The notes under the pieces are model-generated. The model saw nothing but the letters and a program-made list of their open reading frames with translations, did no database searches and was not told where the DNA came from. From the NCBI GenBank assembly GCA_021812385.1, contig JAKANO010000010.1:1-64000 (forward strand): DNA of 64,000 nt, read 5' to 3'. The DNA comes from Pseudomonadota bacterium (GTDB taxonomy: Bacteria > Pseudomonadota > Gammaproteobacteria > Burkholderiales > Thiobacteraceae). Of this stretch, positions 41,364 to 48,601 are shown piece after piece. A program made the translations under genes and the position numbers. Position 1 is the stretch's first letter, and each line of letters opens with the position of its first letter.

Positions 41364-41684
41364 TTGCCTAAACCCGAAAAACACGTTTTCGTCTGCGTCC
41401 AAAATCGCGGCCCCGGCCACCCGCGCGGCTCCTGCATGCAAAGCGGCGCCAGCGATCTGTGGGAGGAGTTCGCCTACGCCTTCCAGCAGAAGAACCTGAA
41501 CGGCCGCTTCGCGCTCAGCAACACCGGCTGCCTCGGCCCCTGCAACGGCCCGCACGTGCTGGTGTATCCGGAGGGCGTGATGTACGCCAAGGTCGGCAAG
41601 GAAGATGTCGCCGCCATCGTCGACGAACATCTGCTGGGCGGCACGCCGGTGGAACGGCTTCAGTTACCACCGGAAATCTGGTGA
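41364..41684 (+). CDS. Thioredoxin-fold [2Fe-2S] ferredoxin
   Basis: VFVCVQNRGPGHPRGSC ... LSNTGCLGPCNGPHVLVYPEGVMYAKV; TTG start after AAGGAGAAC. Confidence 0.9.
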   Translation: MPKPEKHVFVCVQNRGPGHPRGSCMQSGASDLWEEFAYAFQQKNLNGRFALSNTGCLGPCNGPHVLVYPEGVMYAKVGKEDVAAIVDEHLLGGTPVERLQLPPEIW

Positions 41685-41688
41685 CGGC

Positions 41689-42177
41689 ATGAGCGGCGAT
41701 GCCTTCGGCGTGGCCATCGGCTTCGCGACGCCGCCGCGCATCGACGCCCTGCTGCGCCAGGCGGCGGAGCGCTACGCCGATACGCAGCAGGCCGAATTCC
41801 TGCTGTGGACCGCGCTGAAGACCGACCCGGAATGCTTGGGCAGCTATTTCTCGCTGTATAAGTTCTACTTCTACAAACGCATGCTGCCGGATGCCGAGGA
41901 CGTCGCCCTGCTCGCGCTCGAAACCGCCGCGCGCCAGGGCGGGTTCAACGCGGATTGGATGCAGCTCGATGCAAACTCCGTCGACTGGAAGCGCATCGAC
42001 GCGCCGCAGCACTTCTATCTGTTCACGCTGAAGGCGCTGGCCTTCATGCGCCTGCGCTTGGAGCGACCGCAAGAAAGTTTGGAACTGCTCGCCAAATTGC
42101 AGGAACTCGATCCACAAGATTCGGTGGGCGCCTCCGTCATTCGCGATCTGGCAGCGACGGGAATCGGTATGGCTTAG
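41689..42177 (+). CDS. TPR-like hypothetical protein, fix-linked
   Basis: 162-aa frame from ATG 41689; helical repeat-like sequence. Confidence 0.7.
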   Translation: MSGDAFGVAIGFATPPRIDALLRQAAERYADTQQAEFLLWTALKTDPECLGSYFSLYKFYFYKRMLPDAEDVALLALETAARQGGFNADWMQLDANSVDWKRIDAPQHFYLFTLKALAFMRLRLERPQESLELLAKLQELDPQDSVGASVIRDLAATGIGMA

Positions 42178-42185
42178 TCGATCCT

Positions 42186-42202
42186 TGCACCATTCTGGTG
42201 CT
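42186..42202. promoter_or_regulatory. Candidate NtrC-binding dyad
   Basis: TGCACC-ATTCT-GGTGCT; compare the classical glnA site TGCACT-N5-GGTGCA. Confidence 0.6.
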
Positions 42203-42215
42203 TGCGAAAGACGCT

Positions 42216-42230
42216 TGGTACGATACTTGC
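42216..42230 (+). promoter_or_regulatory. Sigma54 promoter upstream of glutaminase fusion
   Basis: TGGTAC-GATAC-TTGC (one mismatch to TGGCAC-N5-TTGC), 35 bp upstream of ATG. Confidence 0.72.
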
Positions 42231-42265
42231 GTGCCTCTCTTTTTGGACAACCAAAAAGAGACTCC

Positions 42266-44089
42266 ATGCGATCCCCTCTCCAGACTTACCTAGAAGAACT
42301 CCACAGCCAACTGGGTAACCTACAGGCGGGCGCAGTAGCGAGTTATATCCCGGAACTCACCAAAGCGAACCCGGACTGGTTCGGCATCAGTCTCGTCACC
42401 ATGGACGGTGTAGCCTATTCCGTAGGGGATTCCGAGCAGTTATTCACCATTCAATCGATCTCCAAACCCTTCGTCTACGGCACCGCACTTGCCGACCGGG
42501 GGCTTGAACTCGTCATGAATAAAGTGGGAGTGGAGCCGAGCGGCGACGCCTTCAATTCGATTAGCCTGAATCCCCAAACTGGCGCACCGCTCAATCCCAT
42601 GATCAATGCTGGTGCAATTGCCACAAGCAGCCTGGTTGCCGGAAGAGACCCCGAGGCGCAGTGGCAGCGTATCGAAGCCTCCATGGCCGCGTTCATGGGC
42701 CGGGACATCAACATCGACGAAGCGGTGTATCGATCCGAAAGCGAGACCGGCTTCCGCAATCGCGCCATCGCCTGGATGCTGAAGAATTTCGGCATCATCG
42801 ACGGCGAACCCATGGCGTCGCTGGAAAATTATTTTCGGCAGTGCTCCATCCTGGTGAGTGGCCGGGATCTGGCCTACATGGCGGCAACATTGGCGAATGG
42901 CGGGGTGCATCCGCTCACCGGACAGCGCGCGCTACCGGAAGAGCACGTCGAGCGCATGCTGAGCGTCATGGCGACTTGCGGCATGTACGACTTCGCCGGC
43001 AGCTGGCTGTATGAGGTTGGAATGCCAGCCAAGAGTGGCGTGGGCGGCGGCATCATTGCGGTGTTGCCAGGCCGTTTCGGCATTGGCATCTTTTCCCCGA
43101 GACTCGACGAAAAAGGCAATAGCGTGCGCGGCATTGCGGCCTGCAAGCAGCTATCCCAGGACTTCAACCTGCACGTCTTTTCTCACGCGCGAGATCCGCA
43201 CATGGTCTTAGGTCGCGTCTACACCGGCGCCGATGCCCCCTCGCGCCGACAGCCGGTGCCGGAAGCGCGCGTGCTCCTGAACGAATTGGCGCAGCGTATC
43301 AAGTATCTCAGCCTGCATGGATTTCTGGCCGTCGATGGCGCGGAATACATCATCCGGCGCATGCAAGAGATGGACGCCGACAGTGACAGCTTTATTCTGG
43401 ACATGCACCAGGTCACAGGCGTATCCGAAAGCGCCGCCCGCCTTCTCAATCAGGCGCGCCTCGGTTTCGGCGCAGCAGGGATCGCCGTGGTGTATTCGCG
43501 CATCCATGACCGCGCGGCCATCATGAACCCGCTGAGCAAGTCGGTGCAGAAGGACGACCACGGTTTCCTCAGCTTTGAGGACAATGACTTGGCGGTGGAA
43601 TGGTGCGAGAACCGGTTGCTGGGAGAGAACACTCTAACCACTGCCAGGGTCTGCTCCCTAGCCGACTCCACCTTGTTCAAGGACGTGCCGGAGGCCCTGA
43701 TAAAACAGGTCGAGGCGGTGAGCCGCACCCAGGCATTCGCCCAAGGCGAATGCATCTTGACGATTGGCCAGGCCGCGGATGGCTGTGTCTATTTCATTGA
43801 GTCCGGCCATGTCAGCATCTTGGTTCCACTGGAAGACGGCGCCCATCAGCGTATCGCTTCGCTCGGGCCCGGCATGGAATTCGGCGAGATGGCGCTGCTG
43901 GGCCAAATAACCCGCAGCGCCTCGGTCTACGCCGACACGGCGGTCACTTGCAGGATCCTTGAATCCCGCGACCTCGACAAAATTTCGGACCAGATGCCGC
44001 TGTTGAAGATCACGCTGCTGCAAAACCTGGCCAAGGAAATGGCCAGCAAACTACGCCGGGCCACCCAGTGGATCGCCGTACTGGCCTGA
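42266..44089 (+). CDS. Glutaminase-STAS-cyclic nucleotide-binding fusion protein
   Basis: Glutaminase motif FTIQSISKPFVYGTAL and GGIIAVLPGRFGIGIFSP; central STAS-like FILDMHQVTGVSESAARLL; C-terminal cNMP motif FGEMALLGQITRSASVYADT. Confidence 0.92.
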   Translation: MRSPLQTYLEELHSQLGNLQAGAVASYIPELTKANPDWFGISLVTMDGVAYSVGDSEQLFTIQSISKPFVYGTALADRGLELVMNKVGVEPSGDAFNSISLNPQTGAPLNPMINAGAIATSSLVAGRDPEAQWQRIEASMAAFMGRDINIDEAVYRSESETGFRNRAIAWMLKNFGIIDGEPMASLENYFRQCSILVSGRDLAYMAATLANGGVHPLTGQRALPEEHVERMLSVMATCGMYDFAGSWLYEVGMPAKSGVGGGIIAVLPGRFGIGIFSPRLDEKGNSVRGIAACKQLSQDFNLHVFSHARDPHMVLGRVYTGADAPSRRQPVPEARVLLNELAQRIKYLSLHGFLAVDGAEYIIRRMQEMDADSDSFILDMHQVTGVSESAARLLNQARLGFGAAGIAVVYSRIHDRAAIMNPLSKSVQKDDHGFLSFEDNDLAVEWCENRLLGENTLTTARVCSLADSTLFKDVPEALIKQVEAVSRTQAFAQGECILTIGQAADGCVYFIESGHVSILVPLEDGAHQRIASLGPGMEFGEMALLGQITRSASVYADTAVTCRILESRDLDKISDQMPLLKITLLQNLAKEMASKLRRATQWIAVLA

Positions 44090-44255
44090 CCCTTCATTCG
44101 CGTTCTGAACCCGGCATGCATCTAAAGGTATCTTTCTTGCTTTACCCTCTGAGAGGTCATGATTTTGTCGGCTATGCAACATAAATCAGATCAGCGAGAG
44201 ACCTTAACGTATCTCGCATCGACTCACAGTGGTATAGAACGGGAATGGAGCATGT

Positions 44256-44588
44256 ATGGCTTACGCCAATGTCTGCAAACAAAGCCTGCTGTACGAGGGC
44301 GAGTTGGTTCCCTGTAAGGTTGACGACAAGGAAATTATCATCATGTGGCCGGATGGCGGGCAGCCGAAAGCCTATGATGCAGCCTGCCCGCATGAAAAAG
44401 TATCGCTGGCGCGCGGCGACTTCAACGGCCGCATTCTCTACTGTATCGCCCATGGCTGGGTGTTTGATGGCCATAGCGGGAAATGTCTGCAACCCACTGG
44501 GTGGACGCTGAAGGAATATCCCTTGCGCTTCGTCGATGGCATGGTGCAGGTCGATCTCGCCAAAAACCCGGAACAGGAAATATCTTGA
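44256..44588 (+). CDS. Rieske [2Fe-2S] protein
   Basis: CPHEKVSLARGDFNGRILYCIAHGWVFDG. Confidence 0.9.
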   Translation: MAYANVCKQSLLYEGELVPCKVDDKEIIIMWPDGGQPKAYDAACPHEKVSLARGDFNGRILYCIAHGWVFDGHSGKCLQPTGWTLKEYPLRFVDGMVQVDLAKNPEQEIS

Positions 44589-46203: not shown

Positions 46204-46557
46204 AATGAAGATCGTAAAAATAAAATCATGCTGAACGTAGCTCAATTATTGGCACCGCGACGCTTTTGGGACCCCTGCGAGCCGCCGAGTAGCGCAGCCA
46301 GGCCGGGGGCAGTCGGCGGATTCATGTTTGAGCGCGTGGGCGCGCAGCGGATCGCGCGAGTTCGAATCTGCCGCCCGGCGTGGCGAGCAACGCAGGGAAG
46401 TCGCCCAGCGGGCGACCGGCGAACCGGGGTGCCTTTTTCTTTGGTTACATTTCTTTTGGGCAAGCAAAAGAAAGTAGCCGCCCCGCCGGGGCGTGACCGG
46501 CCCAAATACATTCCGCGCACAGCGCGACCCCTAACAAGAACCTATACGATTCTCCAT
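46204..46557. repeat. MITE-like element, copy 1 (354 bp)
   Basis: Termini AATGAAGATCGTA ... TACGATTCTCCAT; homologous along its length to 47228-47582. Confidence 0.7.
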
Positions 46558-47227: not shown

Positions 47228-47582
47228 ATTGAGGATCGTAAAAGTGTCTGCCCTGCATAACGTAGACCGACTGCTCGCGTTGAGACGCTTTTGGGGCCCC
47301 TGCGAGCCGCCGAGTAGCACAGCCGCGCCGGGGGCTGTCGGCGGATTCATGTTTGAGCGCGTGGCCGCGCAGCGGGTCGCGCGAGTTCGAATCCGACGCC
47401 CGGCGTGGCGAGCAACGCAGGGGAGTCGCCCAGCGGGCGACCGGCGAACCGGGGTGCCCTTCTTTTTGGTTAGCTTTTTCTTGGGCAAGCAAGAAAAAGT
47501 GACTGCCCCGCCGGGGCATGGCCGGCCCCAAACTAAATCGCGCGCAGGGCGACTCCTGACGGGGATTTATACGATTCTCAAT
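47228..47582. repeat. MITE-like element, copy 2 (355 bp)
   Basis: Termini ATTGAGGATCGTA ... TACGATTCTCAAT (inverted). Confidence 0.75.
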
Positions 47583-47734: not shown

Positions 47735-48601
47735 ATGAACACCGCACGCACACCGCCCACCCAGGATCTGACGCAGACTCATCCCGCGCTTGGCATCCTG
47801 CGCCTGGCGGCCCTATCCGCCAGCCCGGATTGGGCGCCGGATGACGAGACGCTGGATCTCATGTTCGAGCAAGTGGAAGCCGGCGCACTCAATGACATGA
47901 CGCCGGCCGTGGTGTGGCCGGAACTGGTGCGCGGGCTGATGGCCCAGGCGCCCTCTAATATGTTGCGCGCCCTGTACGCCTGTGGCGCGCTCACTGAGGT
48001 ATTGCCCGAGGTAGCGGCCTTGTTCGGCGTGCCGCAGATTGCCGACGATCCGCCGCAAGTCGACATCGGCCAGCATCTGCTACGTGTATTGGACGAAGCG
48101 GCGCGCTGCGATGCGCCGCTATGCGTGCGCTTCGCCGCGCTGGTGATGAATGTCGGCAAGGCGGACTCTCCGCCCGAGCATCTGCCGGTGCACTATCGCC
48201 ACGTCGAGCGCGGCCGGCCGCGCATCGAGGCGATGTGCGAGCGCTTCGGTGTTCCCGATGACTGCCGCGAGCTGGCCTTGCTGGCGCTCGCCGAATGCGA
48301 GCGCGTGCACCGCGTATCGGAAGTGCGCGCCGGCCCGGTGGCGGCGATGCTGGAGCGCTTGGGGGCCTTCGACCAGCCGCAATGCTTCGCGCAATTGATG
48401 ACGCTTTGCGCTTGCGATTATCGCGCCTATCCGGGGCGCACCACACAAGCCTATCCCAAGGCCGCCTTGCTGGACATCGCGCTAAAGGCATGCGCCGGCG
48501 TTGCTGAAACTGGGCACAGCGCCGACACCTTGCAAGAAGCCCGCGCCGTGGTGATCGCCGTCGCGTTTCGCTCGGAGCGTTGGTCGGATCGGGCGGAGTA
48601 A
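47735..48601 (+). CDS. CCA tRNA nucleotidyltransferase-derived protein lacking the nucleotidyltransferase domain; HD motif lost
   Basis: VWPELVRGLMAQAPSNMLRALYACGALTEVLPEVAALFGVPQ resembles bacterial Cca central/C-terminal region; HDxGK position reads NVGK. Confidence 0.75.
   Translation: MNTARTPPTQDLTQTHPALGILRLAALSASPDWAPDDETLDLMFEQVEAGALNDMTPAVVWPELVRGLMAQAPSNMLRALYACGALTEVLPEVAALFGVPQIADDPPQVDIGQHLLRVLDEAARCDAPLCVRFAALVMNVGKADSPPEHLPVHYRHVERGRPRIEAMCERFGVPDDCRELALLALAECERVHRVSEVRAGPVAAMLERLGAFDQPQCFAQLMTLCACDYRAYPGRTTQAYPKAALLDIALKACAGVAETGHSADTLQEARAVVIAVAFRSERWSDRAE

Follow-up and report, generated by a model that had tools for sequence, protein, structure and literature searches.

The closest structurally described relative of the protein considered here, P0001, is Mglu, the salt-tolerant glutaminase of Micrococcus luteus K-3 (PDB 3agd, 3if5 and 3ih8), which has the same fold (phmmer E 1.5e-90 over residues 1-305). 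It is the best match in the PDB, and the fold match reaches its C-terminal accessory domain (E 1e-37, 424-462 columns). However, Mglu ends at about 456 residues, without a cNMP domain, and we know of no cyclase or sigma54 context for it. The animal glutaminases GLS and GAC also carry the PF04960 catalytic domain with an added C-terminal part; they are regulated by phosphate and by filament formation, and they have ankyrin repeats where P0001 has a STAS-cNMP extension. The fusion of a CAP-type domain to an enzyme, with the canonical FGE...R cassette that is also found in P0001, is known from the mycobacterial Pat acetyltransferase and from the regulatory domains of PKA and PKG, and the NCBIfam model of mycobacterial Pat (ActPatMycb56) matches P0001 weakly. 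By contrast with these proteins, the enzyme in P0001 is a glutaminase, and its cNMP domain is C-terminal, after STAS. To our knowledge, the known bacterial effectors of cyclic nucleotides are mostly transcription factors.

Two further systems resemble the locus at the level of signals. In Sinorhizobium, the CHASE2 cyclases CyaD1, CyaD2 and CyaK have been described together with the outer-membrane protein NsrA and Clr (PMC13001267). As we propose here, a CHASE2-class III cyclase responds there to an envelope-level signal, but the Sinorhizobium output is a CRP-type regulator, whereas the linked effectors in our loci are the glutaminase and, in some of them, a cNMP-SpoIIE phosphatase. E. coli glnAp2, for its part, has the same 17-bp NtrC box and type of sigma54 promoter, although it combines paired distal activating boxes with weak proximal limiting sites, while a single strong box in the proximal zone is found here. 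The low-affinity proximal sites of glnAp2 have been proposed to be governor sites that limit the promoter (PMC3870243).

The gene of P0001 lies between two genes of a fix operon in the window (the whole stretch of 64,000 nucleotides that was analysed), where the following features were identified:

41364-41684, + strand: 2Fe-2S thioredoxin-like ferredoxin of the fix operon (best NCBIfam match fdxn_Azotob, below cut-off)
41689-42177, + strand: conserved gene, read as TPR-type (no Pfam match), the last fix-operon gene before the insertion
42178-44255, + strand: inserted segment with gene and promoter, absent from the operon of the relative G373
42186-42202, no strand assigned: NtrC box TGCACCATTCTGGTGCT, single, centred at about -48 from the predicted start (consensus from PMC8743547)
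42216-42230, + strand: sigma54 -24/-12 element TGGTACGATACTTGC, predicted +1 at about 42242
42236-42261, + strand: perfect inverted repeat TCTCTTTTTGG-ACAA-CCAAAAAGAGA with arms of 11 bp, lying across the predicted +1
42266-44089, + strand: glutaminase-STAS-cNMP gene P0001, 607 aa, the sole glutaminase gene found in the genome
42329-43180, + strand: glutaminase domain PF04960, residues 22-305, with S64 and K67
43298-43621, + strand: STAS domain, residues ~345-452, with E388 at the usual phospho-serine position
43730-43987, + strand: cNMP-binding domain PF00027, residues 489-574, followed by a long C-terminal helix (578-606)
43880-43927, + strand: phosphate-binding cassette FGEMALLGQITRSASV, residues 539-554, with E541 and R550
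44256-44588, + strand: Rieske-type ferredoxin, the next operon gene past the insertion

We propose that this glutaminase would be under signal control at two levels, transcription and enzyme activity, in a model to which, as a whole, we give somewhat better than even chances. Transcription would start from a sigma54 promoter of its own that travels with the gene family, and NtrC~P at the -48 box would tune or limit this promoter, mainly fired by another enhancer-binding protein. Binding of cAMP or cGMP to the C-terminal domain would set the activity of the enzyme allosterically, and the STAS domain would serve for coupling or for forming oligomers. The source of the cyclic nucleotide, in turn, would be a CHASE2-class III cyclase in the membrane, acting together with FecR-domain and OmpA-like proteins of the envelope. 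Gene and promoter would have been inserted together between two fix-operon genes of this genome.

A first-pass annotation of the locus had described a glutaminase carrying STAS and an apparently binding-competent cNMP domain, and both parts of this description hold. Pfam PF04960 (GlsA) matches P0001 along the full length of the domain (E 1e-120), and the S-x-x-K active site, S64 and K67, is invariant in 66 sequences. The cNMP domain is matched by Pfam in P0001 and in every one of the 66 family members. As for STAS (PF01740), P0001 itself falls below the threshold, but 58 of the 66 members match, and residues 345-452 show the expected beta-alpha order in an AlphaFold model made with the 66 window and locus sequences (pLDDT 89.4, pTM 0.82), which consists of three parts and the C-terminal helix. 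In an alignment by eye, the phosphorylatable serine of anti-sigma antagonists is absent from this domain, its place being taken by E388; as E or D replaces the serine in 32 of the 66 members, STAS as a phosphorylation target of a partner switch was rejected. The binding competence of the cNMP domain is a prediction supported by its cassette, where G540 is conserved in 66/66 members and E541 and R550 in 64/66 each. In cNMP domains, the Glu and the Arg of the cassette hold the ribose and the phosphate. Additionally, 63 of the 66 members have S or T after the cassette Arg, as do PKG and the cAMP-binding MlotiK1, so that the ligand may be either cAMP or cGMP.

The neighbours of the gene in other genomes also bear on the cNMP domain. 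Clustering them over the glutaminase loci gave one outstanding companion, a CHASE2-class III cyclase. Among 80 loci, which are the best matches, derive in many cases from metagenome bins and include related genomes that are not independent of each other, an ortholog of the CHASE2 cyclase of this genome (48-66% identity) is encoded no more than about 6 kb away in 14, and a CHASE2-type cyclase of any kind lies near the glutaminase in 21 (15 of the 46 where both flanks are long enough). The cyclase-linked loci span beta-, gamma-, alpha- and deltaproteobacteria as well as Verrucomicrobia, and FecR and OmpA-like genes usually accompany the linked cyclase. In L002, from the cultured relative Parasulfuritortus cantonensis, the cyclase and glutaminase genes adjoin each other. 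As only one close ortholog of the cyclase was found in this genome, we infer that the two genes would hardly lie side by side by chance in so many loci. In the genome of the window, the CHASE2 cyclase, FecR and OmpA-like genes are found on the same contig (C6, about 106.6-110.1 kb; L166:7590-11121), about 64 kb from the glutaminase, and are adjoined by a separate 371-aa cNMP-binding protein (L166:6456-7571), so that the pairing of glutaminase and cyclase here is a presumed one.

Given the conserved Glu541 and Arg550 and the cyclase linkage, gating of the glutaminase by a cyclic nucleotide is the best reading of these sequences. It is rather unlikely that the cNMP domain is instead a structural or oligomerisation relic in an ordinary constitutive glutaminase, with its cyclase neighbours explained by coincidence or a shared mobile context. 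Non-binding cNMP folds are common, and no cyclase is found nearby in most of the 80 loci; however, a relic is at odds with the retention of both cassette residues across phyla and with a cyclase linkage that is repeated in distant groups. Glutamine is a nitrogen-status signal for many bacteria. If gating is true, a glutaminase commanded by a cyclic nucleotide and transcribed from a sigma54 promoter would act on the metabolite itself, and so tie nitrogen status to a signal from the envelope or from carbon; as the cyclase-enzyme pair recurs in several classes of Proteobacteria and in another phylum, it would be a directly testable new route. A literature search of incomplete coverage returned no paper in which glutaminase is connected with CHASE2 cyclases or with STAS plus cNMP domains.

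Some other genes recur in these neighbourhoods. A cNMP_binding-SpoIIE phosphatase, possibly a further cyclic-nucleotide effector, is found beside the same cyclase in L029 (9644-10864), L001, L002 and L003, and L002 and L029 also have, nearby, a small protein that was identified as STAS by eye. In Verrucomicrobia-type loci and in L023 (L023, L048, L052, L055, L056, L059, L061, L065 and L068), the glutaminase repeatedly adjoins a secreted NHL-repeat-like protein of about 370 aa.

With regard to transcription, the -24/-12 element has one mismatch to TGGCACG-N4-TTGC, keeps the GG of -24 and the GC of -12 at the fixed spacing, and is followed 36 bases later by the ATG at 42266. The pattern alone is not rare, as 27 matches with up to two mismatches were found in the window against 38 expected, and the evidence for a promoter consequently comes from the comparison with relatives. 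In 80 family members, counting that of the window, we scanned the interval between -160 and +20 relative to the aligned start with a weight matrix hand-written from the textbook consensus, scoring the family and control sets alike. A score of at least 12 bits was reached by 38/80 glutaminase upstreams, compared with 5/514 control ORFs of the same loci; at 10 bits, the counts were 53 of 80 and 16 of 514. The betaproteobacterial sites are located mostly about 51 bases before the ATG. The genome has rpoN, and no sigma70 promoter-like match was observed in 42050-44300. The sigma54 promoter claimed in the first-pass annotation thus stands on firmer ground than was first thought. No 5-mer palindrome is repeated in the family upstreams more often than in shuffles, and a common motif for an upstream activator was rejected on this ground. 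NifA-type sites (TGT-N10-ACA) occur in 1/63 upstreams against 2.0 expected, and none was seen by eye in the region of the first-pass annotation; control by NifA was rejected, as such sites are not enriched in the family.

The same annotation had linked the gene to nitrogen fixation and placed it at the end of a fix operon. This placement describes the map correctly, but not the history of the gene. In G373, the same order is found (fixC-fixX-ferredoxin-TPR-Rieske-amine oxidase) with the glutaminase absent, and about 20 bp separate the TPR stop from the Rieske ATG, compared with about 2.08 kb, containing glutaminase and promoter, in the window. Judging by this comparison, 42178-44255 is a lineage-specific insertion that carries the glutaminase and its sigma54 promoter, a point previously overlooked. 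At the chosen cut-off, the gene was absent from nine genus- and family-mates, and 10 of the 399 genomes of the order gave a match. Plasmid relatives, which cover at most 74% of the query, were discarded.

That the glutaminase is integral to the fix/nif system, selected because it holds down free glutamine and leaves the nitrogenase genes switched on, would agree with its location inside the fix operon of this genome, but we consider it very unlikely. None of the 80 relatives has fix neighbours, and thus no fix neighbourhood is conserved; the operon of G373 does without the gene; and the gene has its own promoter, with no enrichment of NifA-type sites in the family. As the sigma54 site is conserved in relatives without fix neighbours, the promoter is a trait of the gene family rather than of the fix operon. 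The claim of a dedicated link to nitrogen fixation is weakened by the lineage-specific insertion, and such a link is no more than a possibility.

Control by NtrC is a more complex matter. The 17-bp box consensus is TGCACCAnnnTGGTGCA (PMC8743547), and TGCACC-ATTCT-GGTGCT at 42186-42202 matches 13 of its 14 fixed positions, as the first-pass annotation had noticed. It is the single match to TGCACC-N5-GGTGCA with up to one mismatch in the window, where 0.34 would be expected by chance. In the 3.29-Mb genome, which has ntrC (above the cut-off), there is one exact match to the consensus, and three with one mismatch; when up to two mismatches are allowed, the count rises to 30 sites per strand, compared with 2 for a reversed-pattern control. 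The exact site lies upstream of a gene that, from its sequence, we take to be glnA, and the glutaminase box, nearly identical to it, belongs to the second rank in the genome. Of the other one-mismatch sites, one (on C12), together with a second box, precedes a strong sigma54 element and an operon, and the remaining one is within a coding region. From this rarity, and the company it keeps at glnA, the box at 42186-42202 is very probably real.

The position of the box, however, is atypical, and its closeness to the -24 element, which had already been flagged, is borne out. The glutaminase has a lone box centred at -48, whereas the box centres are at -127 and -96 at glnA and at about -177 and -132 at the C12 operon; the glutaminase thus has no pair of boxes located some 100 bp or farther ahead of the start. 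Assuming E. coli-type rules, this difference makes activation by NtrC doubtful, and the governor sites of E. coli glnAp2 (PMC3870243) favor limitation or repression over activation, so that, by analogy, NtrC is no less likely to act as a governor here than as an activator.

A direct activation of the sigma54 promoter by NtrC~P from the -48 box, with the glutaminase produced when nitrogen is limiting, perhaps so as to recover the nitrogen of glutamine or weaken the glutamine signal, is therefore a possible but doubtful explanation. It would account for a box so similar to that of glnA and for a sigma54 element at the correct spacing from the ATG, and the relatives lend it some weight: when up to two mismatches are allowed, 6/63 glutaminase upstreams contain an NtrC-like dyad against 1.08 expected, a mild enrichment, and in some the distance from the dyad to the downstream -24 element is about 96 to 152 bases. 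Against it, the lone box is probably too near for DNA looping, most relatives that keep the sigma54 element lack the box, and joint induction of glnA and the glutaminase would be a futile cycle. Speaking for activation all the same, the relative L014 has NtrC-like boxes at a comparably short distance. By itself, the exact GCAC-N7-GTGC core shows no clear enrichment (2/63 upstreams, 0.68 expected). NtrC may consequently be a recurrent, though not general, partner of the glutaminase family; of the promoter arrangement to be looked for in relatives, the sigma54 element recurs widely and the NtrC box in just these six, and of the claim of NtrC control, the box survives while activation is weakened.

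On C12, at about 39.07 kb (L172:1457-1631), the operon that follows the paired NtrC boxes and their strong sigma54 element includes an ABC substrate-binding protein, presumably BMP-type, and likely serves nitrogen scavenging.

The inverted repeat at 42236-42261, overlooked in the first-pass annotation, contains a weak Shine-Dalgarno sequence (AAGAGA) in its 3' arm. In RNA reading through from fix, the full stem is possible and the Shine-Dalgarno sequence is predicted to be buried (mean accessibility 0.11), whereas RNA started from the sigma54 promoter keeps five stem pairs and leaves it open (predicted accessibility 0.69). As a local hypothesis drawn from these folds, the repeat would shield the glutaminase from fix transcription; alternatively, it could be an operator for some repressor. 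A family-wide hairpin sequestering the Shine-Dalgarno sequence was rejected, as strong stems are found only in the window and a few relatives and the combined test over 27 sequences gave no significant result (Fisher p 0.09). Strong inverted repeats near the sigma54 start were observed in 9 of 47 relatives with p<0.05, and those upstream of the glutaminase in L034, L027, L039, L003 and L006 are of unrelated sequence. An exact 11-base dyad at C25:6051 lies within a coding region and was dismissed as not regulatory.

These structures also raise the suspicion that the dyad, the -24/-12 region and the inverted repeat are all RNA hairpins (attenuator or terminator) rather than promoter elements. 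A 111-nt region does fold far better than its shuffles (z -5.1), and a weak terminator-like stem overlaps the -24/-12 element. Nevertheless, what relatives keep is the letters and spacing of -24/-12, not the hairpins, and the dyad fits a protein-binding consensus at all but one position, which makes this the most improbable of the explanations considered. Returning to the gated glutaminase with its own promoter, its boldest form would join the CHASE2 cyclase, FecR and OmpA-like proteins and the glutaminase into an undescribed module, in which an envelope signal sets intracellular glutamine directly, by way of an enzyme and without a CRP-type regulator; in this genome, a proximal NtrC governor box would tie the module into nitrogen control, and the stem, which can form in read-through RNA alone, would shield it from transcription of the fix operon. 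The conjunction of all these parts is unlikely.

Two other features were observed in the window. The segments 46229-46528 and 47254-47553 are direct copies of 300 nt, 85% identical and about 1 kb apart, with similar translations, and are probably a dispersed non-coding repeat. Finally, an ORF of 288 aa at 47735-48601 resembles the C-terminal part of the multifunctional CCA-adding enzyme, without the nucleotidyltransferase part.
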